Origin: a virus
DNA: 64,000 nucleotides
Strand: one strand, 5' to 3'
IMG/VR virus record: IMGVR_UViG_3300046314_000223
Span: 26,773-90,772 of that record
Shown here: positions 5,174-63,315 of the stretch, one piece after another
Layout of the letters: every line of letters starts with the position of its first letter
Numbering within the stretch: position 1 is the first letter of the stretch
Translations under genes and position numbers: made by a program
The notes under the pieces: generated by a model
What the model saw: only the letters and a program-made list of their open reading frames with translations
Told to the model about the DNA's origin: nothing
Databases searched by the model: none

Positions 5174-6454
5174 TTACGTCTCCAGCATATAGAGTTGTTC
5201 TGATGCCCTTGATGCAGCCACATACAGGCACTTGGTTCGGGTCGATGCATCCCGGTTCTTCATGATGTCAGGGGTATCAATAAAGACATGCTTGAATGTT
5301 GACCCCTGCGAACGATGGGATGTGATTGCATATGCATACTTGACCTGATGGAACCTGTCCTTGCATTCCCAGAACTTTCCCCAGATTTTCTTCTGAGCCA
5401 TCTCATTCAGATAGACTTCCAAGTCGGCAACCGAATCCTCATGTATGACCCTAAGAATTATTTTATCCCCAGTCTCCATACGAACATCAATCTTCCATAT
5501 TTTGAACTGAGGATACTTGGGGTGTCTATCAACGCTGGCACCCAATACCAAGGCTTCATCATCGGTATTTGCCAAGGACGGTTGGTTATCATAATCGGAG
5601 TTGACCGGAGCAGTCATGACCAAACGATCCCCCTTGACGAAAGGAACTTCGCTGTTGGTCATCTCAAAGGACTCCCGGATAAACTGGTTCAGGGTGTCAA
5701 CCGTGACGTTACGCCATGCAATGGCCTTGGCTGCTCCTGTATGGAAAGCCCCCTTGACCGCCAGAGCCTCAATCGTATCAGCAAAGGAATCATCATCCAT
5801 GATATGAACCTGATCCCCGGTGGACTTGATTGTAGGTCGTGGATTGGCTCTGAGTTGCTGAACCATGGTCAGAATTGAGTTGTCATGACGCTCAACCTTG
5901 GTCAACTCAAAGGAAACCGGATATGCTGACCAGATGGGGGAAACGTCATCGCCAACAGGGGGCAATTGCTCTTTGTCCCCCAGCATGATAACCTTGGTTC
6001 CAGTAAAGACTGTCTTGCGTTCCAAGTAGGTCAGAACAGTATTGTTCAGCATAGAAGCCTCATCAATCAGAACCAAGTCATATGAACCAGCATCATTCTG
6101 GTCATCCTTACCAACAAGTTCCTTGACAGCACCATTAGGTTCCAATCGAAGCCCCAACAGGGAATAGATGGTCTTGAATGTCAGTCCAGAAACGGCATCA
6201 CCAATACTCTCCTTGATAACCTTCAGGGACTTATTGGTCGGGGTAGTGACGGCAATCTTCAGGTCCATTCTAGAAATGGATTCCAAGAAATACCGAATGG
6301 ATGTTGTCTTACCAACACCAGCCTGACCAGAAAGCAGGTATACCAAGTTGGAATCCTTGGTTGATCGAGCGTTGCTCTTGACAAAGGAAGTCAAGGACTT
6401 GATCAGTTCAGATTGATCTTTGTTAAGAATGATGTCTTTTTGTTGTGGAGTCAT
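5174..6454 (-). CDS. dda: Dda-like SF1B DNA helicase
   Basis: 426 residues (T4 Dda 439). Seen: Walker A GQAGVGKTT at 43-51, TPTNKSLKVI (motif Ia), Walker B LIDEAS at 129-134, MLGDKEQLPPVG (motif III), AITSHRSQGSTF (motif V) and YVAASRASEQLYML (motif VI). In T4 this 5'-3' helicase helps start replication and strips proteins from DNA ahead of the fork. It overlaps the upstream GIY-YIG gene by 4 bases. A RecD2-like helicase is the alternative, but the length fits Dda. Confidence 0.9.
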   Translation of the reverse strand: MTPQQKDIILNKDQSELIKSLTSFVKSNARSTKDSNLVYLLSGQAGVGKTTSIRYFLESISRMDLKIAVTTPTNKSLKVIKESIGDAVSGLTFKTIYSLLGLRLEPNGAVKELVGKDDQNDAGSYDLVLIDEASMLNNTVLTYLERKTVFTGTKVIMLGDKEQLPPVGDDVSPIWSAYPVSFELTKVERHDNSILTMVQQLRANPRPTIKSTGDQVHIMDDDSFADTIEALAVKGAFHTGAAKAIAWRNVTVDTLNQFIRESFEMTNSEVPFVKGDRLVMTAPVNSDYDNQPSLANTDDEALVLGASVDRHPKYPQFKIWKIDVRMETGDKIILRVIHEDSVADLEVYLNEMAQKKIWGKFWECKDRFHQVKYAYAITSHRSQGSTFKHVFIDTPDIMKNRDASTRTKCLYVAASRASEQLYMLET

Positions 6455-7134
6455 TTTAAATGAGTCAGCTTATCGGGGTCTACCCGATACGTTTTGCTTG
6501 TCGTTGGTTTCGGTGGTTGGGCAACGATTCGTTGAGTCTTGGTTGATTTTACCAAGTCACCCGGTAGAGTATAGCATGGTTCATGTCCTGTGCGTTGGAC
6601 ATCTTCGTTCAAAATCACACAGTCTGGGTTGACCGCAATTTGAGACCCGCCGTAGGGTTGTATAGACCACTCTGCCAGAACCAGATTCTTCTTATTGCGG
6701 TAGGCTTTATTCAGAATAAATCGGTTTGTTGCTGGTTTATTATCAGCAATGATTGCCGCCTCAAGCAACTCTGCTGACTTCCGGGTTCGGCAGTAGAATG
6801 TGTGTTTCAGGGAAAATGACTGTTGACCATCAATCCGCATGATTGCTTCAACTACCTTGGATGATGTAAAGTATCTCCGAAGAACAGAGTGTGGTTCATC
6901 ATCGGTATGCACACCAATATAGAAACATCCAGTTCTGCTGTGTTCAATGATATAGACGCAGGTATATTTCCCAACTTCGTTCTTGACTGGCGTTGTTGAT
7001 GCATAGTCGTAAATCGTCTTTGCGTCCGTCAGTCTTCGTTTCTTGTCAGCCTTGGCCTTCTTTTTCTTTACCTCGTATACATGCTGTATGTTATATGTAG
7101 CCGCAATCCCTGTATGCCAATCACCTTTTGCCAT
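6451..7134 (-). CDS. GIY-YIG domain protein, possible homing endonuclease
   Basis: 227 residues. Around residues 55-130 I see a GIY-YIG-like pattern: VYIIEHSRTG then FYIGVHTDD, an Arg-Arg-Tyr segment, a lysine/valine helix and LLEAAII, which could supply the metal-binding Glu. The first 45 residues are strongly basic and the tail is Pro/Thr/Lys-rich, suiting DNA contact. It overlaps dda by ATGA, so it is an integrated member of that operon rather than an obvious intruder. Nuclease activity is inferred. Confidence 0.55.
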   Translation of the reverse strand: MAKGDWHTGIAATYNIQHVYEVKKKKAKADKKRRLTDAKTIYDYASTTPVKNEVGKYTCVYIIEHSRTGCFYIGVHTDDEPHSVLRRYFTSSKVVEAIMRIDGQQSFSLKHTFYCRTRKSAELLEAAIIADNKPATNRFILNKAYRNKKNLVLAEWSIQPYGGSQIAVNPDCVILNEDVQRTGHEPCYTLPGDLVKSTKTQRIVAQPPKPTTSKTYRVDPDKLTHLK

Positions 7135-28939: not shown

Positions 28940-29566
28940 ATGGTTGAAAATTTGCTCTTGGTTGAAAAATACCGCCCACGTTCTGTCTCCGATTGCATCC
29001 TGCCTGCACGAATCAAGGACTCCATTCAGGATGCCATTGACTCCAATAACCTTCAGCATATGATTTTTCATGGGCCTGCCGGGGCAGGTAAGACCAGCCT
29101 AGCCAAGGCAATCTGTGGGGATATCTCAGGCGACATGCTGTATATCAATGCATCCAATGAGACTGGCATTGATGTGGTGCGAAACAAGGTATCCAACTTT
29201 GCATCCACCATGTCATTCGATGGTAACATGAAGGTTGTCTTGTTGGATGAATGTCTGTCCGAAGATGAGACTGTTCGTGTTGGACATACTGACCTGTGGA
29301 AACCTGTTGCTCTGAAAGAACTTGAGCTTGGTCAAGAGTACCCGATTGTGTCATTCAATGAATCAACGCAAGAATTTGAGAATGATACTGGCTCTATAAT
29401 TTCCGATAAGGTGGATGATATGTATGAGGTGATGCTGGATAGCGGAAAAACTATCGTCTGCAACAAGAAGCACCCTTTTATGTGTCAGTCTCCAGATGGT
29501 TCAATTGTCCAGCGCACGATTGAAGAAGGTCTGGATGGTTACTTGGTGATTGTTGCCAATGATTGA
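28940..29566 (+). CDS. 44: Clamp loader gp44 N-terminal half fused to split-intein N-part
   Basis: 208 residues. Residues 1-104 are the front of the T4 gp44 clamp-loader ATPase: VEKYRPRSVSDCILP, Walker A HGPAGAGKTS at 44-53, INASNETGID, and the first part of Walker B, VVLLDE. At residue 105 the frame enters an intein: CLSEDETVRVG (block A, catalytic Cys) and SGKTIVCNKKHPFM (block B with the His), ending at residue 208. The remainder of both gp44 and the intein is encoded at 30445-31191. Protein trans-splicing would join E104 to the C of CDRLSSS. No endonuclease domain is present in this half. Confidence 0.9.
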   Translation: MVENLLLVEKYRPRSVSDCILPARIKDSIQDAIDSNNLQHMIFHGPAGAGKTSLAKAICGDISGDMLYINASNETGIDVVRNKVSNFASTMSFDGNMKVVLLDECLSEDETVRVGHTDLWKPVALKELELGQEYPIVSFNESTQEFENDTGSIISDKVDDMYEVMLDSGKTIVCNKKHPFMCQSPDGSIVQRTIEEGLDGYLVIVAND

Positions 29567-30428
29567 TGCAATTGCGGATCAATATCGACTGATTCATGCA
29601 AAGTCTCGTCAGTGGCCGAATCTGAGTAATTCGGTTCCGGTTGCTGCCATTCAGCATGAACAGACATGCGCTAAGAGTCACCTGACTGAATCCGATGGGT
29701 TGGATCAATGGGTCAGGCAGAGCGATGTTGATTATCCGATTCGCTCCAGAACCATATTCTCTATGGGGCTGGACTATCTTCTTAGCCGAGGTGTTCATAC
29801 TGATTGGATGGAGCGTCAGCATGACCATCATCTGCAGCAATCGCATGCCTCAAATCTGACCGATATTGACAAGGATCATATCCAGAAGTTGATAATTGGT
29901 GGGATGGAATATGGACATGATTCTGACTCTGCCGACCTGACCAAGTTCTTGACTGATGCCTATAAGACTCGATCTAAGCCATCTTTGTTTGTCAGGAAGC
30001 ACGTCAAGGATGTCAGTGTTCCTCCTGACCAGATTGACCTGACCAAGGTGGATTCTGCGCTGGGTAAGAATACATTTGCCGATGGATTTCATTCATTTCA
30101 TGGTATTGGATTTCATCCCGGAAAGTTGGTTGGCAATTCAGATATGTTGCATCTGCCAGCATATACTTCCGGGTCAGTCAATCGAAATATTGCCCTGAAA
30201 TATGCTAAACTATCTCCTGTTGATGGAGCGCACCATGTCATTCATATGGTGCATCCCAAGGACTCAACCGGAGTCTACATCGGAAATCAATCGTTCCATG
30301 ATAACGAAGTTCTGCTACCCAGAAACTTGACCCTGAAGATTCACCCCCATGAATCTGCCCGCTATGATGTGAATGGTAAACCAGTTCATGTCTGGGTTGC
30401 TCACCGAATCCCTTTTACCGAAATCTAA
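29559..30428 (+). CDS. ADP-ribosyltransferase-like protein between split-intein halves
   Basis: 289 residues from the ATG at 29559, overlapping the stop of the gp44N gene by 8 bases; a TTG two codons plus one upstream is less likely. The last 120 residues resemble the toxin/Alt-type ADP-ribosyltransferase fold: FHGIG at 180-184 (Y-R-G position), AYTSGSVNRNIALKYA (STS-like strand) at 201-216, VIHMVHPKDSTGVYIG, and DNEVLLPRNLTLKI at 248-261 (E-x-E position, with the catalytic-type Glu250). The N-terminal 150 residues are unassigned. It sits where fractured genes with split inteins usually carry a homing endonuclease; I see no nuclease motif. Activity is inferred. Confidence 0.6.
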   Translation: MIDAIADQYRLIHAKSRQWPNLSNSVPVAAIQHEQTCAKSHLTESDGLDQWVRQSDVDYPIRSRTIFSMGLDYLLSRGVHTDWMERQHDHHLQQSHASNLTDIDKDHIQKLIIGGMEYGHDSDSADLTKFLTDAYKTRSKPSLFVRKHVKDVSVPPDQIDLTKVDSALGKNTFADGFHSFHGIGFHPGKLVGNSDMLHLPAYTSGSVNRNIALKYAKLSPVDGAHHVIHMVHPKDSTGVYIGNQSFHDNEVLLPRNLTLKIHPHESARYDVNGKPVHVWVAHRIPFTEI

Positions 30429-30444
30429 ACTCTTGAAAGTTCTC

Positions 30445-31191
30445 ATGTCTTCTTATACATTATGCAAGGTAAAGTCAATTCTCCCTCTTGGTCGCGGCAG
30501 GGTCATTAACCTTACCGTCAACAAGAATCATACATTTGTCACTGGAAATGGCATTGTCACTCACAATTGTGACCGCCTTTCCTCGTCTGCTCAGGACTCT
30601 CTGAAGGCAACCATGGAGCAGTTTGCCGGTGCAACGACTCGGTTTATCATGACCAGCAATAACAAGCAGAAGATCATTGCTCCGATCATGTCAAGGTCTA
30701 CCATGTATGACTTCACCATGACCACGGATGAGCGAAATGCCCTGATTCCTATTGCTTTCAAGAGAATCGCCACGATTCTGAAGGCAGAAAACATCGAATA
30801 TGATCCCAAGTCGGTGGCATCTCTGGTTCAGAAGCACTATCCCGACATGCGGAAAACCTTGAATGAGATTCAACGATATTCCTCCAATGGAAAGATTGAT
30901 GCGGGTATCTTGATTCAAGAGAACACCACCACAGATGAACTGATTGGTTTCCTGAAGAACAAAAAGTTTGGGGATGTTCGCAAGTGGCTGGCTCGTAACC
31001 CGGACTTGGATCATCAGTTGCTTTTGCGACACTTCTATGACAATCTGACGGAACTATTCACCCCTCAGACAATCCCAGAAGTCATCCTGATCCTGTCTCA
31101 GTATCAGTATTATGCATCTCGTGTGGTTGACCAAGAAATCAACACGATGGCATGTCTGATCGAAATGGTCAAGGGGTCAGAATGGAAGTAA
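30445..31191 (+). CDS. 44: Split-intein C-part fused to clamp loader gp44 C-terminal half
   Basis: 248 residues from the ATG at 30445. Residues 1-41 are a typical intein C-fragment: RVINLTVNKNHTFVTGNG (block F) and IVTHN (block G, terminal Asn41). The next residue, Cys, starts the C-extein CDRLSSSAQDSLKATMEQFA, which completes Walker B and continues with the sensor-1 segment TRFIMTSNNKQKI, an arginine-finger-type SRS and the C-terminal collar domain. Joined extein length is 104 + 207 = 311, close to T4 gp44 (319). Splicing would leave Cys at the junction. The longer frame upstream overlaps the ADP-ribosyltransferase gene and is less likely. Confidence 0.9.
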   Translation: MSSYTLCKVKSILPLGRGRVINLTVNKNHTFVTGNGIVTHNCDRLSSSAQDSLKATMEQFAGATTRFIMTSNNKQKIIAPIMSRSTMYDFTMTTDERNALIPIAFKRIATILKAENIEYDPKSVASLVQKHYPDMRKTLNEIQRYSSNGKIDAGILIQENTTTDELIGFLKNKKFGDVRKWLARNPDLDHQLLLRHFYDNLTELFTPQTIPEVILILSQYQYYASRVVDQEINTMACLIEMVKGSEWK

Positions 31192-32788: not shown

Positions 32789-34018
32789 ATGCCAACAATC
32801 CTTAAAGCTTATAAGTACCGGGTTTACCCGACTCAGGTGCAGGCTGAGTTCCTTGATAGGAACTTTGGAGCAGTGCGTTTCCTCTGGAATCAGTTCGTAA
32901 GTTCTTTCAATGGGTGTGATAGAGGTCCGGTCCTACCTGAGAACGAGAAAATCCTGAAAGACAGGAATCTCTGGATGCACGACGTTATCTCCTATGCCCT
33001 CCAGCAAAAGAGGATGGACTGGTTTGAATTCAAGAAGCAATACTTTAGCAAGAAACGTAAAACGAAGTTAGGTAGACCATCCTATAAGAAACGTGGTGTT
33101 TCTAATGATTCTTTCCGGTTACCCGGAGCATGCATCGGTTTCAACGCCGGAGTCAACTTCGACAAGGGTACTTTGAAAATCCCTAAGATGGCTCCATTAA
33201 AAGTCGTTTATGATAGGGAATTTAGTGGTCAACTTCGTTCGGTAACTCTTTCAAAGAACAAATGTAATCAATATTTCGTTTCAATACTTGTTGAAACTGA
33301 AGTAGAAATAAAACAAAATACCGGTCGCTCAATCGGTATTGATCTTGGTCTAAAGCATCTTTGTATCCTGTCAAATGGGATCAAAATCGACAATCCAAGA
33401 TGGTTTCGTGAAACTCAAGCGAAACTAAAAAGAGCACAGCAGCATTTTAGTCGCAAGACTAAAGGGTCGTCAAGGTACAATCAGCAACGATTAAAGGTAG
33501 CAAAGCTACATTTGAAAGTTGCAAATCAAAGAAAAGACTTCCAACATAACTTTTCGACATGGTTAGTCAACAACTACGATACGATCCTCACCGAGGACTT
33601 GAACGTCAAAGGGATGGTTAAGAATCGTAGGTTAGCTAAGTCGATTAGTGATGCTTCATGGTCTTCATTGGTCTCCATGATCGCTTATAAGTCAAACTGG
33701 TACGGTCGAAGCTTCCATAAGATCGATCGTTGGTACCCTTCGTCGAAAACTTGTAGTTCATGTGGTCATAAAGAGACTAACATGGGATTACATGTTCGTG
33801 ACTGGAAATGCCCAAGTTGTGGAACTGAACATGATCGTGACTTGAATGCTGCTGTAAACATTTTACATAAGGGTCTTGATGATCTTTATGGATTTAAAAC
33901 ATCGGAAGAATTATCCGATTACAGGCGCGGAGAAGACATAAGACCCGAGGCAGTAACGCCGAAGGCACCTTCGTTGAACCGTCTAGTCAGTTTTATCGAT
34001 TTTGATAGAACGACGTAA
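32789..34018 (+). CDS. tnpB: TnpB-type RNA-guided nuclease (IS605 OrfB)
   Basis: 409 residues. RuvC-like catalytic residues are all present: Asp185 in GIDLGLKH, Glu269 in LTEDLNVKGM and Asp351 in HDRDLNAA. A four-Cys zinc site (CSSCG at 322-326, CPSCG at 341-345) lies between them. The N-terminus LKAYKYRVYPTQVQAEFLDR and the C-terminus EAVTPKAPSLN are typical. Known TnpBs use an RNA from the 3' end of their own gene to cut DNA. There is no tnpA in the window, so the element is non-autonomous or domesticated. It lies between regA and hsp20 and its codon use is less like the neighbouring genes. Confidence 0.9.
   Translation: MPTILKAYKYRVYPTQVQAEFLDRNFGAVRFLWNQFVSSFNGCDRGPVLPENEKILKDRNLWMHDVISYALQQKRMDWFEFKKQYFSKKRKTKLGRPSYKKRGVSNDSFRLPGACIGFNAGVNFDKGTLKIPKMAPLKVVYDREFSGQLRSVTLSKNKCNQYFVSILVETEVEIKQNTGRSIGIDLGLKHLCILSNGIKIDNPRWFRETQAKLKRAQQHFSRKTKGSSRYNQQRLKVAKLHLKVANQRKDFQHNFSTWLVNNYDTILTEDLNVKGMVKNRRLAKSISDASWSSLVSMIAYKSNWYGRSFHKIDRWYPSSKTCSSCGHKETNMGLHVRDWKCPSCGTEHDRDLNAAVNILHKGLDDLYGFKTSEELSDYRRGEDIRPEAVTPKAPSLNRLVSFIDFDRTT
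33920..34010 (+). ncRNA. Probable omega-RNA/right end of the TnpB element
   Basis: The last 100 bases of tnpB contain the hairpin CGAAGG/CCTTCG (33960-33973) and TTGAAC, the pattern found at the right end of many IS605-type elements where the guide RNA scaffold overlaps the tnpB 3' end. The guide would be the flanking sequence just after the right end, near 33990-34030, around the hsp20 start. The exact 3' boundary is not known. Confidence 0.5.
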
Positions 34019-49841: not shown

Positions 49842-50822
49842 ATGTCAAACAACAAGTTAGGTGTTTTAATCGGAAGGTTCCAGCCTTTCCACGATGGTCA
49901 CCTCTATGCAGCGAAGGTTGCTGCAAGTCAGGTAGATCGACTTCTGATTCTCGTTGGTTCAGCTAACGCATGTCGTTCAATCAAGAACCCATGGACATAT
50001 CAAGAACGAGTCGATAACATTCGCAAAATTCTTCGTCAAAATGACGTAAACAACGTCAGCTTCCAACCAATCAACGATCATCCATACAACGATCATCGTT
50101 GGATTACTGAAGTCATCGCAAGCATTGGTTATGTTGACTGCAAAGACGTTATTCTCTTCTCACCTTGGAAAGAAGGTAATGACTACCTGAAGTGGTTCCC
50201 CATGATGAAGAACAGAAGCATTCCACAAGGCGCAATGGGGATGAATGCAACTGGAATCCGCGAGGCGATGTTTCGCGCCAATGATCCATCAATCCCCAAA
50301 ACCGTTCAGGCTGACTGGGATTACTATCAGAAGGAGGCTGAAAAGTTTTCTTCCTATCCATACCCCGAAACATTGAACTTCAACTGTGCAGATGCAGTTG
50401 TCGTATGTCTTGGTCATGTTCTGTTGATTGAACGCAAGCATGCTCCCGGTATGGGGTCGTGGGCACTGCCCGGTGGATTTAAGAATCGCGCTGAAACATT
50501 CCAGCAATGTGCCATTCGTGAACTCCGAGAAGAAACAAATCTTCGTGTTCCAGAGAAGGTTCTGTTGGGTTCCATCACTGCTTCAAAAATGTTCGATAGT
50601 CCAAATCGCTCATTTGGTATCAATCGCAATACAATGGCATTCTGTTTTGAATTAAAGCCAGATTCCGATGGTTCTTTACCACGAGCAAATGGTTCAGATG
50701 ATGCAAATCAAGCGAAATGGTTTCTTCTCAGTGAAGTCATGAATGGTCTTATTTTATGGGAAGATCATAAAGCTATCATATCAGAATTAACGGGAATTCA
50801 TCCAGATTTTGCTGCACGTTAA
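49842..50822 (+). CDS. nadM: Bifunctional NMN adenylyltransferase / Nudix hydrolase
   Basis: 326 residues. N-terminal NadM-type domain: GRFQPFHDGH at 11-20 (HxGH-like nucleotidyltransferase motif) and MNATGIREAM (ISSTxxR-like) near 132, joining NMN and ATP to NAD+. C-terminal Nudix domain: GGFKNRAETFQQCAIRELRE followed by ETN, a full Nudix box, probably an ADP-ribose pyrophosphatase. Such fusions are known from bacteria and from vibriophage KVP40 (NatV). It stands directly before the NAMPT gene, making a two-step route from nicotinamide to NAD+. Confidence 0.92.
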   Translation: MSNNKLGVLIGRFQPFHDGHLYAAKVAASQVDRLLILVGSANACRSIKNPWTYQERVDNIRKILRQNDVNNVSFQPINDHPYNDHRWITEVIASIGYVDCKDVILFSPWKEGNDYLKWFPMMKNRSIPQGAMGMNATGIREAMFRANDPSIPKTVQADWDYYQKEAEKFSSYPYPETLNFNCADAVVVCLGHVLLIERKHAPGMGSWALPGGFKNRAETFQQCAIRELREETNLRVPEKVLLGSITASKMFDSPNRSFGINRNTMAFCFELKPDSDGSLPRANGSDDANQAKWFLLSEVMNGLILWEDHKAIISELTGIHPDFAAR

Positions 50823-50840
50823 CCCGATTGCACGGCGGTT

Positions 50841-50852
50841 CCGTGCTACAAT
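50841..50852 (+). promoter_or_regulatory. Promoter before the NAMPT gene
   Basis: CCGTGCTACAAT (TACAAT 50847-50852) followed by GAAGGAG, 25 bases before the ATG at 50877. Same -10 as at 44119. Confidence 0.6.
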
Positions 50853-50876
50853 GTCATAACGAAGGAGTTTCAAAAC

Positions 50877-52199
50877 ATGACTATTAACCCAAAATCAATC
50901 GTATTCAATTGTGACTCATATAAGGTTTCTATGTGGAAGCAGTATCCGCCCGGAACCGAGTATGTGTATTCCTATGTCGAGGCGCGTAAGGGCGGCCCCG
51001 TTCTGAATTTCGGTCTTCAGAAGACGATCATTGATCTGATCGACCAGAAGGTCACTACAGAAGATGTTCTTGCGGCAGAGAAGTTTTGGACCGCACATGG
51101 AGAACCGTTCAACACCGATGGCTGGCTCTATATCGCCAACGAACTTGGTGGTGTGCTGCCTCTGGAAATCCGTGGAATTGATGAGGGCATCGTTCTTCCA
51201 TCCGGAACGCCTGTTGTCACCATCGTGAATACCGACCCAAAATGCTTCTGGCTCACCACATGGGTCGAAACTGCCATTCTGCGGGATGTGTGGTATGCAT
51301 CTTCAGTTGCCACCACATCATATAACATCCGACAAATGATCATGCAGTATCTGGACTACTCCGGCGACCCATCTGGAATTGATTTCAAATTGCATGACTT
51401 TGGATTTCGTGGGTCCAATTCATATGAATCATCGGAGATCGGCGGTGCGGCACACTTGATCAGCTTCATGGGGACCGATACCGTATCTGGTATCTTTGGT
51501 GCCGCAAAATATTATGGTGCCGATATATATGCCACTGCATACTCTGTACCCGCTGCAGAACACAGCACAATTACGTCATGGGGGCGAGATAAAGAGTGTT
51601 TGGCATACGAAAACATGATCAATCAGTTCTCCAAACCCGGCGCAATCTATGCCGTGGTTTCTGATTCATATGATATTTACAATGCCGTGGATAATTTGTG
51701 GGGTAAAGAACTTCGAGACCAGATTATCTCCACTGGCGGCACTCTGGTCATCAGGCCTGATTCGGCAGACCCCGTTGTTGTGCTCCCAAAATTGATCGCC
51801 TCGCTCGAAAAATCATTCGGAGTGACCGTCAACGATAAGGGATACAAAGTGTTGAACAATGTTCGTCTGCTTTGGGGAGATGGCATCAATTTCATGTCCA
51901 TTTCTTCTATCCTGCGCATGATCGTTGATGTGCTGGGATATTCTGCAGACAATATTGCTTTCGGTATGGGCGGTGCTCTCCATATGGGGGTTAACCGGGA
52001 CACATATGGATTTGCCATGAAGGCATCTGCCGCCTATGTAAATGGGGAATGGGTTGACGTTTTCAAAGAACCTATCACCGATCCCGGAAAAAAGTCTAAG
52101 CGTGGTCGTTTTGATGACCCTCGACTTAAACTGAGGTATCGCGATGGTGCTTTAGACAATTTGCAAAAATTCGATGAAGTTCGGGCAAATGCAAAATAA
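50877..52199 (+). CDS. nadV: Nicotinamide phosphoribosyltransferase (NAMPT/NadV)
   Basis: 440 residues. It makes NMN from nicotinamide and PRPP. Family motifs are visible: NCDSYKVSMWKQYPPGTEYV at the start, HDFGFRGSNSYESSEIGG (active-site Asp and Arg), VSDSYDIYNAV, TLVIRPDSADP and LLWGDGINF. Length is typical of phage and bacterial NadV. With NadM upstream it can rebuild NAD+ after NAD-degrading defence systems act; this two-enzyme pathway is known in phages (NAD+ reconstitution, NARP2 type). Confidence 0.95.
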   Translation: MTINPKSIVFNCDSYKVSMWKQYPPGTEYVYSYVEARKGGPVLNFGLQKTIIDLIDQKVTTEDVLAAEKFWTAHGEPFNTDGWLYIANELGGVLPLEIRGIDEGIVLPSGTPVVTIVNTDPKCFWLTTWVETAILRDVWYASSVATTSYNIRQMIMQYLDYSGDPSGIDFKLHDFGFRGSNSYESSEIGGAAHLISFMGTDTVSGIFGAAKYYGADIYATAYSVPAAEHSTITSWGRDKECLAYENMINQFSKPGAIYAVVSDSYDIYNAVDNLWGKELRDQIISTGGTLVIRPDSADPVVVLPKLIASLEKSFGVTVNDKGYKVLNNVRLLWGDGINFMSISSILRMIVDVLGYSADNIAFGMGGALHMGVNRDTYGFAMKASAAYVNGEWVDVFKEPITDPGKKSKRGRFDDPRLKLRYRDGALDNLQKFDEVRANAK

Positions 52200-52257
52200 T
52201 TGACTGCAGTTCCTTGTTTGTGATACAATAGAACCACAAACAAGGAACCTATACAGC
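52200..52257 (+). promoter_or_regulatory. Promoter TTGACT-18-TACAAT and leader
   Basis: TTGACT (52200-52205), TTTGTGA, TACAAT (52224-52229), AGAACCACAAAC, AAGGAACC before the ATG at 52258: a cassette copy with good -35. Confidence 0.8.
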
Positions 52258-52521
52258 ATGAAAATCGAATCCAAAATCCAGACCCTTGGCGGCTTCGATG
52301 CCAATTGGACAGACGAGCAGATCAAGAACGAACCGATGCTGTTCAATTGCAGTCTTGATGGTGCGCTTGCGCTTGGTGGCGACATCACGAAAGAATTTAT
52401 CAAGTCTCTCTACAAAACAGAAGCTGGTAAGAAAATCTTTGATGGCGATGTTGTGATTGATTCTCGCAGTCACATGCTGATGTCCGGTTGGTATTATTCA
52501 AATTCCGCAGCGCTTCCTTGA
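52258..52521 (+). CDS. N-terminal part of a split 2OG-Fe(II) oxygenase-like gene
   Basis: 87 residues. Up to VVIDSRSHMLMSGWY (about residue 80) it reads as the front of an oxygenase; the last residues (YSNSAALP) differ and run into the antisense homing endonuclease gene, whose 3' end it overlaps by 28 bases. The missing part continues at 53332 with YPFPGYHHDSVPRSG. I conclude that the endonuclease inserted between the two. Whether the two chains still work together is unknown. Confidence 0.6.
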   Translation: MKIESKIQTLGGFDANWTDEQIKNEPMLFNCSLDGALALGGDITKEFIKSLYKTEAGKKIFDGDVVIDSRSHMLMSGWYYSNSAALP

Positions 52522-53315
52522 ATCAATTCCATTTTCTTTCTGGCTTTTGTTTCTTTCATTTTCCTAGTGGTTTCTGCGGCCCAAACAGGGTCTTTCCATC
52601 GGTCTTTATTGGATTGTATCATAGTTGCTCTGTATACTGGGTCTTTCCATCTCTCAACATTGCCATCTCGAATTGCCGTCAATATTGTTTCTTTTGATTC
52701 TTCGTCTGTCCATTGTTTGAGCGCGTTATTAGACTTTTTCTTTTTTGATTCTGGAGTGTTTGCTGCCTGTCGAATGATTGACAACCATCTTTCTTGATAT
52801 TCTTCGTCTTCATGATATTTTTTTGTCAATGTTTCACATTGCTCTCTAGCCTGTTTTAACAAACCTTCTCTGGATTCTGGGTCTTGCCATGCCATCTTTC
52901 TGGATTCTGACATTTTCTGTCTTGTCTCATCGGATGGTGATGCAGATATTCGTGTGGTTGGGTCTCCCGCACGAAAATTTGTTAGTGGACCGTCAACTAT
53001 GCCATCAATTGCGTGTCTTGTCCCTAGTGTACGGATTAGCTGGTCCTCTATGATCAGAGCTTCTTCATGCGTCACATTTTCTATTACTTTAACGATTGCA
53101 GGTAAGACTCCTTTATTCAACAGTTTTCGTATCTTATTTGTTTTCATGCTTTCATCTTGTGTGTCCGACATGGCTACTTTAAGATGATGCATATGTCGAT
53201 ATCGACAACCTTTACCAATATAAAACGGTGTCATTTGGTGTGATTTTCCGAGGATACCATGCTCTTTGACATCTGTTGGATCGAAATACACATAAACGAA
53301 AAACTTATTTGACAT
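52494..53315 (-). CDS. GIY-YIG homing endonuclease
   Basis: 273 residues. GIY-YIG domain at the start: FVYVYFDPTD, then PFYIGKGCRYRHMHH (Tyr, Arg, His) and EEALIIEDQLI (metal-binding Glu). The C-terminal half contains repeated short helices with W-KDP and SESRKMAW (NUMOD3-like DNA-binding modules: residues about 120-260). It is antisense to and inserted within an oxygenase gene. The AAGGAGATGAG ribosome site lies upstream of its ATG at 53315. Confidence 0.85.
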   Translation of the reverse strand: MSNKFFVYVYFDPTDVKEHGILGKSHQMTPFYIGKGCRYRHMHHLKVAMSDTQDESMKTNKIRKLLNKGVLPAIVKVIENVTHEEALIIEDQLIRTLGTRHAIDGIVDGPLTNFRAGDPTTRISASPSDETRQKMSESRKMAWQDPESREGLLKQAREQCETLTKKYHEDEEYQERWLSIIRQAANTPESKKKKSNNALKQWTDEESKETILTAIRDGNVERWKDPVYRATMIQSNKDRWKDPVWAAETTRKMKETKARKKMELIQGSAAEFE

Positions 53316-53331
53316 CTCATCTCCTTTAATA

Positions 53332-53772
53332 ATGTTTGCTTATATTTACCCGTTTCCCGGTTATCATCACGATTCCGTGCCTCGCTCTGGGTTCAATGGA
53401 CAACCGAACTACATCAATCCAGAATGTCGCCCCAAGCATGTCATGGGCCTGGTCAATGCTCACATCTGCCCAACACAGTTTGCATTGGGGGATATTGATC
53501 TGGAGGTTCCAACTGAGGGAGTCATTTACAAGCAATGGCATCCTGAAGTCAAGATGGCAGTTGATTATGGTTGGATGGATTCCTATTCAGCAGAGTCGGG
53601 TAAACTGATTCACTTTGATGATCGGACATTCCATCAGGGAACTACTGCTGTTGCTTCTGGATGGAGGTGGTTCATTCGTCTGAGTTACGATGATGACCGA
53701 ACCAAGAAAGTCACCAATGAAGTCCGCCATCAAGTTCAGGTTTATCTTGAGCATCCTATGGAGGGATGGTGA
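53332..53772 (+). CDS. C-terminal part of a split 2OG-Fe(II) oxygenase-like gene
   Basis: 146 residues. It contains the presumed iron-binding set of the double-stranded beta-helix: HHD at 12-14, His101 in FHQGTTAV and Arg112/Arg116 in GWRWFIRLSY for 2-oxoglutarate. The sequence from residue 6 joins naturally to the end of the 52258 gene (SGWY + PFPGYHHD). It starts 17 bases from the start of the divergent endonuclease gene and lacks a clear ribosome site. The oxygenase assignment rests on the spacing of these motifs. Confidence 0.6.
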   Translation: MFAYIYPFPGYHHDSVPRSGFNGQPNYINPECRPKHVMGLVNAHICPTQFALGDIDLEVPTEGVIYKQWHPEVKMAVDYGWMDSYSAESGKLIHFDDRTFHQGTTAVASGWRWFIRLSYDDDRTKKVTNEVRHQVQVYLEHPMEGW

Positions 53773-53776
53773 ATTT

Positions 53777-53816
53777 CTGTGATATAATAGAACCATCCAC
53801 AAACAACCCCTACATC
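53777..53816 (+). promoter_or_regulatory. Promoter-leader cassette
   Basis: CTGTGATATAAT (TATAAT 53783-53788), AGAACCATCCAC, then ACATC before the ATG at 53817. The leader lacks the usual AAGGAA ribosome site. No -35 is seen. Confidence 0.65.
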
Positions 53817-59052: not shown

Positions 59053-59213
59053 AGACGAGTGAGCTACCTAAAATCAACAAGTCACCACCGATCTATTATC
59101 AGATGGTTGGATTCATAGTGACTGTTGTTTCGATGAATGAAACAGGCAAACTTCCAATGATTCTTGTTGGCGTCCATGAAAACGATTGGGTGGTGGCTGT
59201 CTTGAGTTGTTAA
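59049..59213 (+). CDS. Micro-gene family member (54 aa)
   Basis: MKTSELPKINKSPPIYYQMV..., 54 residues, ATGA overlap. Its last 4 bases overlap, tail to tail, the homing-endonuclease remnant on the other strand. Confidence 0.7.
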   Translation: MKTSELPKINKSPPIYYQMVGFIVTVVSMNETGKLPMILVGVHENDWVVAVLSC

Positions 59214-59527
59214 TTTTTCTTTCTGGTGCTATAAGGAACCAAGTTTTCTGGGAGTGGACTGGAGAACCGAGATGGGTTGATTCGGTAGATGATTCCGGTC
59301 TTTGTGTCGATATACTTGTTGGCATTATGCGCCCGGATCGTGACATAACGACCTTTAATGACAGCATCCAGAGACTTCAATACGCCAATCAGGAAAACTT
59401 CATCGACGGTATCCCATATGTATTCAAAGCGATTAAAATTTCCTTGGAGAATTTCGTTGGTTATCTTAGTCTTCGCTTCTGCGAGCTTAAACCGACGCAT
59501 CTTTTCCTTGGCGGCTTCAGTTTGCAT
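59210..59527 (-). pseudogene. C-terminal remnant of a homing endonuclease
   Basis: 105 residues. KITNEILQGNFNRFEYIWDT then VDEVFLIGVLKSL and a basic tail match the last 110 residues of the 418-residue endonuclease at 62059-63315 (KITNEILRGDFGRFEYLWDT). The catalytic and repeat parts are missing. It lies on the same strand as the N-terminal piece at 60705-61271, suggesting that one endonuclease gene was broken apart by the material between them. Confidence 0.65.
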
Positions 59528-59869: not shown

Positions 59870-59980
59870 ATGAAAACAATCAAATTAATCTGGCATTACG
59901 TTCAATACTTACTGCTGCCTGTTGCGTTTATACAGCACTTGATTCCTTCTATGAAACAAGCGTTTAAAAATGTCAGCTAG
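59870..59980 (+). CDS. Small hydrophobic peptide (36 aa)
   Basis: 36 residues, MKTIKLIWHYVQYLLLPVAF then IQHLIPSMKQ; one probable membrane helix. Overlaps the next gene start by 11 bases. It forms, with the following two genes, a compact coupled set. Confidence 0.5.
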   Translation: MKTIKLIWHYVQYLLLPVAFIQHLIPSMKQAFKNVS

Positions 59981-60431
59981 CTATGTTCTGTATAAGCAAG
60001 CAACACCAGAGCAAGCGCAGGCGTTTACAGCAGGTCAGGGCGTGAGGCTTGGTGCTTATGGTGACCCGGCGGCGATACCTAGGGCAGTGTGGGATAACAT
60101 GCTATTGACTAAGGCATCATTCTGGACCGGTTACACGCATAACCTGAAGGTACAGCCCAGCATGGCGGATCTGTGCATGGTATCGGCAGATAGTCAACAG
60201 CAAAGCGCATCAGCCAAAGCACACGGGCGGCGAAGCTTCCGGGTTATACCCTTGACACAATGGCAAGCTAAAGGCAAAGCGTCAGTAGCATCTCACGAAA
60301 TACTGTGCCCAGCTTCAGCAGAGGCAGGGGTGAGGGTTACGTGCGATAGTTGTAAGCTATGCAACGGGACGAAATCTAAGGGGAAATCTATTGCAATAAT
60401 TGTGCATGGTCCGGGGGCAAAGTATGCATAA
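59970..60431 (+). CDS. DUF7227-like phage protein, foreign codon use (153 aa)
   Basis: 153 residues. ILCPASAEAGVRVTCDSCKL followed by CNGTK and IAIIVHGPGAKYA matches a family of phage proteins I recall under DUF7227, with a four-Cys probable metal site. It uses codons such as GCG, AGG and GGG much more than the flanking genes, a sign of recent transfer. Function unknown. Confidence 0.65.
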   Translation: MSASYVLYKQATPEQAQAFTAGQGVRLGAYGDPAAIPRAVWDNMLLTKASFWTGYTHNLKVQPSMADLCMVSADSQQQSASAKAHGRRSFRVIPLTQWQAKGKASVASHEILCPASAEAGVRVTCDSCKLCNGTKSKGKSIAIIVHGPGAKYA

Positions 60432-60704: not shown

Positions 60705-61271
60705 TCAACGCATAGAAACGCGCTGTGACAAGCGGTAGACCCCAATGCATACCCTAGCATCAACCAATGTTAAACGACGGCCCCTAGGGGCGTTTAAAGC
60801 GCTAGAAATGACGTCTGGGTTCTGTGTAGGATTATCATACCCAGTTTTGTTTCGGTAGTTTTCCGCTTTCTTATCAAGAAGCTCTTGGCTCTTTGATGGA
60901 TGGTCAACATCATAGACGTTGATCATTGCGGCGCGGAATGCATCCGTCCCATATGGCGTTATACTGGTATTGTTGTTCATGTTTAGCCACTCAGATGAAG
61001 TGGCGCAATCATTCTCAACTAAGAACTGGGTTTCGTAGTCATGAACATCACCAACTTCGTCTTTGGTTTTGATACTGATGACTCGGAAAGCAGCAAGACC
61101 TTCTTCCTCAATGATTTTGTGAACGACCTTGGAACTGGTCTGGTATCCACCCGGTTGCATGAACTCTGATGGGTGACAGCCTTTAGCGTAACGACAACCG
61201 GCATATCGTTTGCCAGAAGCAACATGCTGAATGATGTAAAAATAAGGGACGTAAATAGGTTTGCTGGACAT
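60705..61271 (-). CDS. GIY-YIG homing endonuclease, truncated (188 aa)
   Basis: Residues 1-150 match the start of the 418-residue gene at 62059: PYFYIIQHVASGKRYAGCRY, CHPSEFM, TSSKVVHKIIEEEG, DYETQFL (metal Glu). One repeat of the C-terminal type (TGYDNPTQNP) remains; then the sequence becomes unrelated (ALNAPRGRRLTLVD) and stops. The C-terminal DNA-binding domain survives separately at 59210-59527. The nuclease domain is intact by motif, so it might cut without proper targeting, or be dead. Confidence 0.7.
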   Translation of the reverse strand: MSSKPIYVPYFYIIQHVASGKRYAGCRYAKGCHPSEFMQPGGYQTSSKVVHKIIEEEGLAAFRVISIKTKDEVGDVHDYETQFLVENDCATSSEWLNMNNNTSITPYGTDAFRAAMINVYDVDHPSKSQELLDKKAENYRNKTGYDNPTQNPDVISSALNAPRGRRLTLVDARVCIGVYRLSQRVSMR

Positions 61272-61457: not shown

Positions 61458-62084
61458 ATGTCAAATGAACTCACCCCATCGCAAGCAGCACTCATCCCAC
61501 AGTACGTTTCGGAATATGTGGCACACGGTTTCTACACCAGTTCCGGTACCCGTGAAGATGATGAACACATCGCTCGTGCAACCGAGCGCGCATACAAGAA
61601 CGCTATTTCCCGCAAGCGCCACGATTCCATCACTAAGGTTCCGATGGTCGTGGTTGGTTCCATGAAGCAAGTCGTTCACATGATGAAGCAAACCATTCAA
61701 GGTGATGCCGACGCAATCAAATCCACGATTCAATCTGCTCGTCACAATGGTCAATTCCAAGCAGCAACTGATGCTCGATTCATGTTTCACTTGGAAGTTC
61801 TTGGGGTGGGTGGGGACGCGCTTGAATGGCATTGCGTATCTCCTTTGTACCGCAAGAACGGTGGGGTGTTTTTATTTCCTGAAATTTGTTTCTGCGTTCG
61901 TCCACCGATCCGTTTTGATGATGACTCTGACGGCAATCCCGTTCCGATCTGGAATGAAGAATCTGCGCCGACTGTTTATACACCTCAGAATCCAACTGAC
62001 ATCAACGATGTCACGAAATACTCCGTTGAAGACATCGAAGACCTCCCCAACACCGTTGTCATTCAGGGAAAGAGCTTCCTTTAA
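61458..62084 (+). CDS. Hypothetical protein (208 aa)
   Basis: 208 residues: helical N-terminal half (QAALIPQYVSEYVAHGF, MMKQTIQGDADAIKSTIQSA) and beta-type C-terminal half. Codons are of the strongly expressed type (GGT, CGT, AAC). It overlaps the endonuclease on the other strand by 26 bases at its end. Unknown. Confidence 0.65.
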   Translation: MSNELTPSQAALIPQYVSEYVAHGFYTSSGTREDDEHIARATERAYKNAISRKRHDSITKVPMVVVGSMKQVVHMMKQTIQGDADAIKSTIQSARHNGQFQAATDARFMFHLEVLGVGGDALEWHCVSPLYRKNGGVFLFPEICFCVRPPIRFDDDSDGNPVPIWNEESAPTVYTPQNPTDINDVTKYSVEDIEDLPNTVVIQGKSFL

Positions 62085-63315
62085 GCACAAAGTTAACGGG
62101 AAGGGGTTTGCTAAACATTGATTGGACTACGTAATACGTTTTGTTAGTCAAAACATCAACATACCCTTCCCTGCCAAGCTTCCCACTCTTGATGCTGATG
62201 TATCTCCCTTCCCCATATGTTCGGTTAAGGGATTTCATCACGCCAATAAGGAATACTTCATCTACGGTATCCCACAGATATTCAAATCGACCAAAATCAC
62301 CTCGTAATATTTCGTTGGTGATTTTGTCTTCTGTGTTTTTATGTCTTGATGTCCGTATGCGATCAATGATGATTGGTGAGTGACTGGCGTTTTCTACGCC
62401 ATATCTTTCTCTCATCGTATCTTTGGCCTTCTCTCTAACTATCGGACACAGCAGTGCGGTTTCAACGCCACGGCTTTCCATATTGGTTTGCCTACTCTTG
62501 GCTTGAATCTCGGGAGACTTCATTTGATGATCGACCCCATATCGATCCATCAATGTTGATGTAGCTTTTGCTCTAACCACGGGACATTGTAGTACACTCC
62601 CAAATCCTCGTCGTTCCATGTTGGTCTGTTTGGTCTTTTCCCGGATTTCTTGTGCCTGCTGTGGAAATTCCGTTCCATATCTCTCAGTCATGGTCTGTCG
62701 GAATCTATCATGCGATTCTGGATTATGCATTGGATTTTCGACTCCATATCTATCATTCATGGTCTGTCGAACGGTTGCTTTAACTTCTTTGGCTTGCATT
62801 GGGTGGTCAACTCCCCATCTCTCTTGGCATGTTTTCTTAGCCATTTCCATGACTTCAGGTAACTGCAACGTGCAATCAACTCCATGACGAGCCTGATTTG
62901 TCTGTCTGATGGATTCTATAAATGCTGGATGATGGGAGACGTTTTCGACGTCATATCGGTCTCTTAGGATGTTCTTAAATTCTTCCGAACCAAATGCGGG
63001 GCGTTTGTTGTTGTGCATATTGAACCACTCTGATGAAGCAGCACAATTATTCTCAACCAAGAAATTTGTCTCGTAGTCATGGACATTGCCAATTTCATCT
63101 ATGGTCTTAATTTCGACCACGACAAATGCATCAATGCCTTCTTCCTTGATGATTTTCTTAATCTTCTTGGAACTGGTTTTGTAACCATCTTCGGTCATGA
63201 ACTCTGATGGATGACAGCCTTTGGCAAAGCGACAACCGGCATACTTCTTTCCAGAAGCAACATGCTGAATGACGTAAAAGTAAGGGACGTGCGGATAAAT
63301 AGGTTTGCTGGACAT
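62059..63315 (-). CDS. GIY-YIG homing endonuclease with RYG repeats
   Basis: 418 residues. GIY-YIG domain at 10-95: YFYVIQHVASGKKYAGCRFA, TSSKKIKKIIKEEG, HDYETNFLVEN (metal Glu). Residues 110-310 hold six or seven repeats of about 28 residues with the core RYGVEN-x-HxP-x-x-x-x-RxRQT, as in modular DNA-binding parts of large phage homing enzymes. The C-terminal domain (KITNEILRGDFGRFEYLWDT) occurs in damaged form at 59210. This is the apparently complete copy of a family present three times. Confidence 0.8.
   Translation of the reverse strand: MSSKPIYPHVPYFYVIQHVASGKKYAGCRFAKGCHPSEFMTEDGYKTSSKKIKKIIKEEGIDAFVVVEIKTIDEIGNVHDYETNFLVENNCAASSEWFNMHNNKRPAFGSEEFKNILRDRYDVENVSHHPAFIESIRQTNQARHGVDCTLQLPEVMEMAKKTCQERWGVDHPMQAKEVKATVRQTMNDRYGVENPMHNPESHDRFRQTMTERYGTEFPQQAQEIREKTKQTNMERRGFGSVLQCPVVRAKATSTLMDRYGVDHQMKSPEIQAKSRQTNMESRGVETALLCPIVREKAKDTMRERYGVENASHSPIIIDRIRTSRHKNTEDKITNEILRGDFGRFEYLWDTVDEVFLIGVMKSLNRTYGEGRYISIKSGKLGREGYVDVLTNKTYYVVQSMFSKPLPVNFVLKGSSFPE

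Follow-up and report, generated by a model that had tools for sequence, protein, structure and literature searches.

Between positions 52258 and 53772 of the window (the whole 64,000-nucleotide stretch of viral DNA analysed here), an oxygenase N-half on the plus strand, an antisense endonuclease gene and an oxygenase C-half, again on the plus strand, follow one another (Table 1). This raises the question of whether the outer frames are parts of one interrupted gene, what interrupted it, and whether the pieces can still yield an enzyme. A sequence-only reading had proposed a single oxygenase gene of about 220 codons, broken just before its HxD motif, and the three frames that it listed are all present where it placed them. 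The locus is very probably the result of the antisense insertion of an intronless, free-standing GIY-YIG endonuclease gene of the homing type, which split a phage 2OG-Fe(II) oxygenase gene.

Table 1. Features of the interrupted oxygenase locus, in window coordinates
Feature	Position	Strand	Basis or remark
Candidate oxygenase promoter, sigma70-like, TTGACT-N18-TACAAT	52200-52235	+	Consensus match only
Phage repeat motif TGATACAATAGAACC, inside the candidate oxygenase promoter	52221-52235	+	
Oxygenase N-half, 87 aa	52258-52521	+	Native to about 52494, final ~8 codons are insert reading; alignment with intact relatives
Left insertion junction, at the Tyr codon of ...MSGWY	52492-52497	.	DNA comparison with intact L021/L030, GGTTGGTATCC(C/T)TG
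GIY-YIG endonuclease, homing type, 273 aa, 822-bp gene	52494-53315	-	Profile matches
Endonuclease Shine-Dalgarno sequence, AAAGGAG	53321-53327	-	Shine-Dalgarno scoring
Oxygenase C-half, 146 aa	53332-53772	+	First ~5 (5-6) codons (MFAYI) from the insert, native from about 53347
Right insertion junction, TACCCGTTT ahead of CCCGGT	53347-53355	.	Comparison with intact relatives
His-x-Asp motif (HHD), putatively iron-binding, retained	53365-53373	+	Family alignment
Tentative endonuclease promoter, ATGATA-N17-TATAAG	53367-53339	-	Read from sequence, weak
Promoter motif TGATATAATAGAACC of the next gene	53780-53794	+	

One oxygenase family in two parts

In a PHROGs profile scan, the N-half matches positions 13-80 of phrog_1843 (E 2.4e-13) and the C-half positions 84-222 (E 5e-34). 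The 222-position profile is thus covered in two consecutive parts, far beyond chance. The family is common in phages, with 390 records returned by a C-half query and 451 by an intact-relative query. A search for uninterrupted relatives that would fix the insertion site retrieved about 80 intact members from metagenomic viral contigs, in which the sequence across the junction is almost constant, HMLM[KP]GW[YF]P[AC]IPG[WYF]HHD. The two frames are not always separate genes in relatives: 66 other relatives of the C-half are contiguous with an N-half, and none of the 66 carries the insertion. The exceptions are the window's own twin; L002/L103, whose contig starts after the junction and is silent on interruption, L002 being the closest relative (70%); L168, an intact relative with HLD replacing HHD; and L161. 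Among intact relatives, the closest share about 62% identity with the window C-half. Because intact relatives are contiguous across the junction, the gene was ancestrally whole and the insertion occurred in the window lineage. The site is defined and polymorphic: the insertion is carried by one lineage (two assemblies) and missing from at least 66 relatives. No near-identical phage with an empty site was found among the relatives, and a search of the phrog_1843 relatives for further interrupted members turned up only the frameshifted record L161. This record (Aeromonas phage 65, 2348-3378) contains the same oxygenase gene with one or more frameshifts in the same loop and no insert; the product is deposited as two proteins, E5DSE0 and E5DSD9, which may reflect a sequencing error or a real break.

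The window derives from a metagenomic contig, in which an assembly chimera or artefact might be suspected. This is very unlikely here, given that a second, longer assembly (L001, a 129 kb contig) has the same arrangement and identical junctions, with one SNP in 8,438 bases. The twin rules out simple assembly error and adds no independent evolutionary information.

A structure model of the intact relative L021 (AlphaFold, 47 sequences; pLDDT 93.5, pTM 0.90) has the 2OG-Fe(II) oxygenases GriE, HalB and ColD and proline hydroxylase amongst its top PDB matches (Foldseek, probability about 0.99), at low TM-scores of 0.3-0.45 against PDB 2OG-Fe(II)-type enzymes. On this basis phrog_1843 is predicted to have the 2OG-Fe(II) double-stranded beta-helix fold. 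The break falls in the active-site loop of the model, between strands 64-73 and 108-114. H85 and D87 of the HxD motif (L021 numbering throughout) are invariant in 91 of 91 aligned sequences, the middle residue being H, T, N or L, and distant members carry HTD, HND and HLD. The window keeps both residues, together with the distal His, H173, and R184; their invariance suggests that these form the HxD...H triad and the 2OG-binding Arg. The consecutive profile matches, the intact relatives and the model all bear out a single gene broken just before HxD.

Two near-invariant columns are altered in the window, one with F in place of I and the other with S at D88. Both adjoin the junction, and D88 is Gly in distant phrog_1843 members. 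None of 26 conserved columns in the C-half (95% level, shared with L002) and one of 18 in the N-half (90% level) is changed. In both halves this is no greater than in many intact relatives. Such an absence of visible decay would be compatible with a recent insertion or with continued function, and fits either.

The endonuclease and its junctions

The antisense frame matches PF22945, LEM-3_GIY-YIG (Pfam, E 2.1e-13), and phrog_314, homing endonuclease (E 6.8e-5). Its catalytic domain spans residues 6-121 and is followed by a charged C-terminal region with WxDP-type repeats. The catalytic Tyr, Tyr, Arg, Glu and Asn of the GIY-YIG family are present as Y8, Y32, R40, E90 and N113, and these residues and H44 are identical in six aligned homologues. 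A structure model built from the single sequence was discarded (pLDDT 41.7). In other phages, the endonuclease has relatives encoded by free-standing genes, one of which adjoins a major capsid gene.

The minus strand of the window also carries three more GIY-YIG genes and a C-terminal remnant of one, at 6451-7134, 59210-59527, 60705-61271 and 62059-63315; around 59-63 kb they sit amid plus-strand genes. The frame at 59970-60431, which matches the end of phrog_2554, was considered as a second split gene and dropped, since similar stretches carry this domain in 147 phage records.

At the oxygenase locus, the insert of about 850 bp (~52495 to ~53346) consists of the 822-bp endonuclease gene and ~30 bp upstream of its start, so that the description of an antisense gene with hardly any flanking DNA holds. 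The intact L021 junction reads GGT TGG TAT CCC TGT ATT CCC GGT TGG CAT CAT GAC GAT. The window has GGT TGG TAT followed by TATTC... on the left, and ...TAC CCG TTT CCC GGT TAT CAT CAC GAT on the right. The endonuclease stop codon (TTA on the plus strand, 52494-52496) shares the final base of the host Tyr codon. The right junction is ~1 codon short in comparison with all intact relatives, and about one host codon has been lost or replaced. Comparison with the intact relatives thus shows an insertion just before HxD, into codons predicted to encode the active-site loop.

The sequence-only reading had the two frames joining naturally into one enzyme. They do belong to the same family and are consecutive, but at one position of the constant GW[YF]P[AC]IPG spacing a residue has been lost or substituted, which prevents a codon-exact join. 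Nor are the frame ends native: the last ~8 residues of the 87-residue frame and the first 5-6 of the 146-residue frame are insert-derived.

These junctions bear on two mechanisms by which the gene might be restored. Phage GIY-YIG genes frequently lie within group I introns, and RNA splicing of a group I or II intron with an internal endonuclease would reunite the halves. Here, however, the antisense endonuclease gene takes up all but ~30 bp of the insert, which leaves no room for an intron, and the flanks fail to join into the constant spacing. An Rfam search up to E 5 gave only chance microRNA- or snoRNA-type matches, in agreement with the earlier view that a group I intron core is absent, and this explanation is extremely improbable. 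Alternatively, a fractured gene could be paired with a split intein that ligates the halves as proteins, and such an arrangement probably exists elsewhere in the window, in the clamp-loader gene. At the oxygenase locus, the ~8 foreign residues after the N-half and ~5 before the C-half are far too short for intein parts, and on the length of these extensions a split intein was rejected as having next to no likelihood.

The clamp-loader (gp44-like) gene, at 28940-31191(+), looks fractured by a split intein in its own right. An intein-like N part (PF14890, E 1.2e-3) closes the frame at 28940-29566, and the frame at 30373-31191 opens with a C-intein-like segment ending VTGNGIVTHNC, which precedes the gp44 lid domain. 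A separate 292-aa frame between them (29550-30428) has no Pfam or PHROG match. A TnpB-like gene (OrfB_IS605, with a Cas12f1-like TNB domain) is located at 32789-34018(+).

Expression and fate of the oxygenase

The promoter-like motif TGATAYAATAGAACC repeats upstream of plus-strand genes in this region of the genome, at 45861, 46185, 52221, 53780 and 55984 (+). The motif TGATACAATAGAACC of the oxygenase promoter has six matches in the window with up to two mismatches, against 0.68 expected. A search across the window found none between 52235 and 53780, so none serves the C-half; the copy at 53780 belongs to the next gene. The one match in the window to a T4-type late promoter, TATAAATA, equals the chance expectation and is not at the oxygenase locus. 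Just upstream of the oxygenase, at 49842-52199(+), lies an NAD+ salvage gene pair, comprising a NadM/Nudix-like 326-aa frame, named from sequence alone, and a nicotinamide phosphoribosyltransferase (phrog_448 match).

Translation signals differ markedly between the C-half and the endonuclease. No start scored in the window is weaker than that of the C-half, which has no Shine-Dalgarno match (+3.4 kcal/mol), while that of the endonuclease is the strongest, at -8.7 kcal/mol. The missing Shine-Dalgarno sequence is not decisive, because many genes of this phage have weak sites. The C-half ATG may be incidental, since it is located in the endonuclease leader of the opposite strand. RNA structure at the start of the C-half or of the endonuclease is no stronger than in shuffled sequences. 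The tentative endonuclease promoter combines a -10-like TATAAG (53344-53339) with a -35-like ATGATA (53367-53362), together matching 9 of 12 consensus bases, and the -35-like element falls within the host Tyr-His codons. The promoter scan demands T at position 6 of the -10 element, so this candidate went unlisted.

It is possible, though the balance of evidence leans the other way, that the sense transcript yields both halves and that these fold together as a functional two-chain oxygenase, in the manner of NrdA-a and NrdA-b of phage Aeh1. Both reading frames remain open; the HxD motif, distal His and Arg are kept; the conserved columns show no excess of changes; and the break is placed by the model in a loop and not in a strand. 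There are also precedents in split NrdA, split gp43 and the T4 topoisomerase (PMC2988022). Against this, the C-half lacks both a Shine-Dalgarno sequence and a promoter, and its ATG is ~810 nt past the N-half stop, which makes translational coupling of the halves unlikely. To reach the C-half, the sense transcript must first cross the ~850 nt upstream of it that are antisense to the endonuclease, and sense and antisense transcripts would be in opposition. In Aeh1, mobE and nrdA are co-directional, which makes expression of both halves easier to explain there. Beside the junction, moreover, two near-invariant residues are altered and one is lost. The C-chain is without the N-terminal strands and should therefore need the N-chain for folding.

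Loss of the oxygenase, by knockout or by expression reduced to very little, is probable and is favoured over a working two-chain enzyme. A rather unlikely variant is an active two-chain oxygenase with the endonuclease promoter lying partly in the HxD codons, such that the opposing transcripts would set enzyme and endonuclease in competition.

The most probable sequence of events is as follows. An endonuclease gene of ~850 bp inserted antisense into the codons of the predicted oxygenase active-site loop. By analogy with seg and mob genes, the endonuclease would cleave oxygenase alleles free of the insert and be copied in at the cut, and its presence in an allele would destroy its own target. 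Its expression would most likely start from a short leader of its own that carries a strong ribosome-binding site. As a result of the insertion, the N-chain ends after ~79 native and 8 foreign residues. The C-half is still open, but its ATG may be incidental, and it has neither a ribosome-binding site nor a promoter of its own.

Comparison with known split genes

Genes split by free-standing endonucleases include nrdA of Aeh1 (mobE), gene 60 of T4 (mobA) and gene 43 of phage 25 (seg43) (PMC2988022). The Aeromonas phage Aeh1 case, cited as precedent by the sequence-only reading, stands as an analogy. According to the account in PMC2988022, which cites Friedrich et al. (2007), an intronless homing endonuclease gene likewise occupies a critical stretch of an enzyme gene and leaves two open frames; mobE, however, is of the HNH type and function of the split enzyme was demonstrated, whereas the window gene is GIY-YIG, antisense and in an accessory oxygenase. 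T4 mobA, at the split topoisomerase gene 39/60, and phage 25 seg43, in gene 43, are also free-standing endonuclease genes at split phage genes, but involve other endonuclease families and host genes, and none of them is said to lie antisense inside the gene that it splits (PMC2988022). The T4 endonuclease genes are all co-directional with their neighbours except segD, a GIY-YIG gene and the sole T4 homing endonuclease gene in opposite orientation (PMC2988022). Unlike the window gene, segD lies between genes 23 and 24 and splits no gene.

On the oxygenase side, phrog_1843 proteins of T4-like and other phages are 44-63% identical and have the same motifs, and some are annotated as 2OG-Fe(II) oxygenase. 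They differ in being uninterrupted in all examined, that of Aeromonas phage 65 being frameshifted without an insert.

A literature search, carried out mostly outside subscription journals, found no case of an antisense LEM-3-like GIY-YIG gene within a split accessory oxygenase gene. The locus would be a clear addition, both intronless and antisense, to the small set of genes known to be split by free-standing homing endonucleases. The insertion lands on the predicted active-site codons, where the gene is most conserved. If the halves work, they would provide a small (~220 residues), readily tested model of split-enzyme survival; if they do not, the locus would be an example of such endonucleases breaking accessory genes. 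The window case is of a known kind, but is distinguished from the systems above by an antisense position within the split gene, a LEM-3-like GIY-YIG endonuclease and an accessory oxygenase as host.
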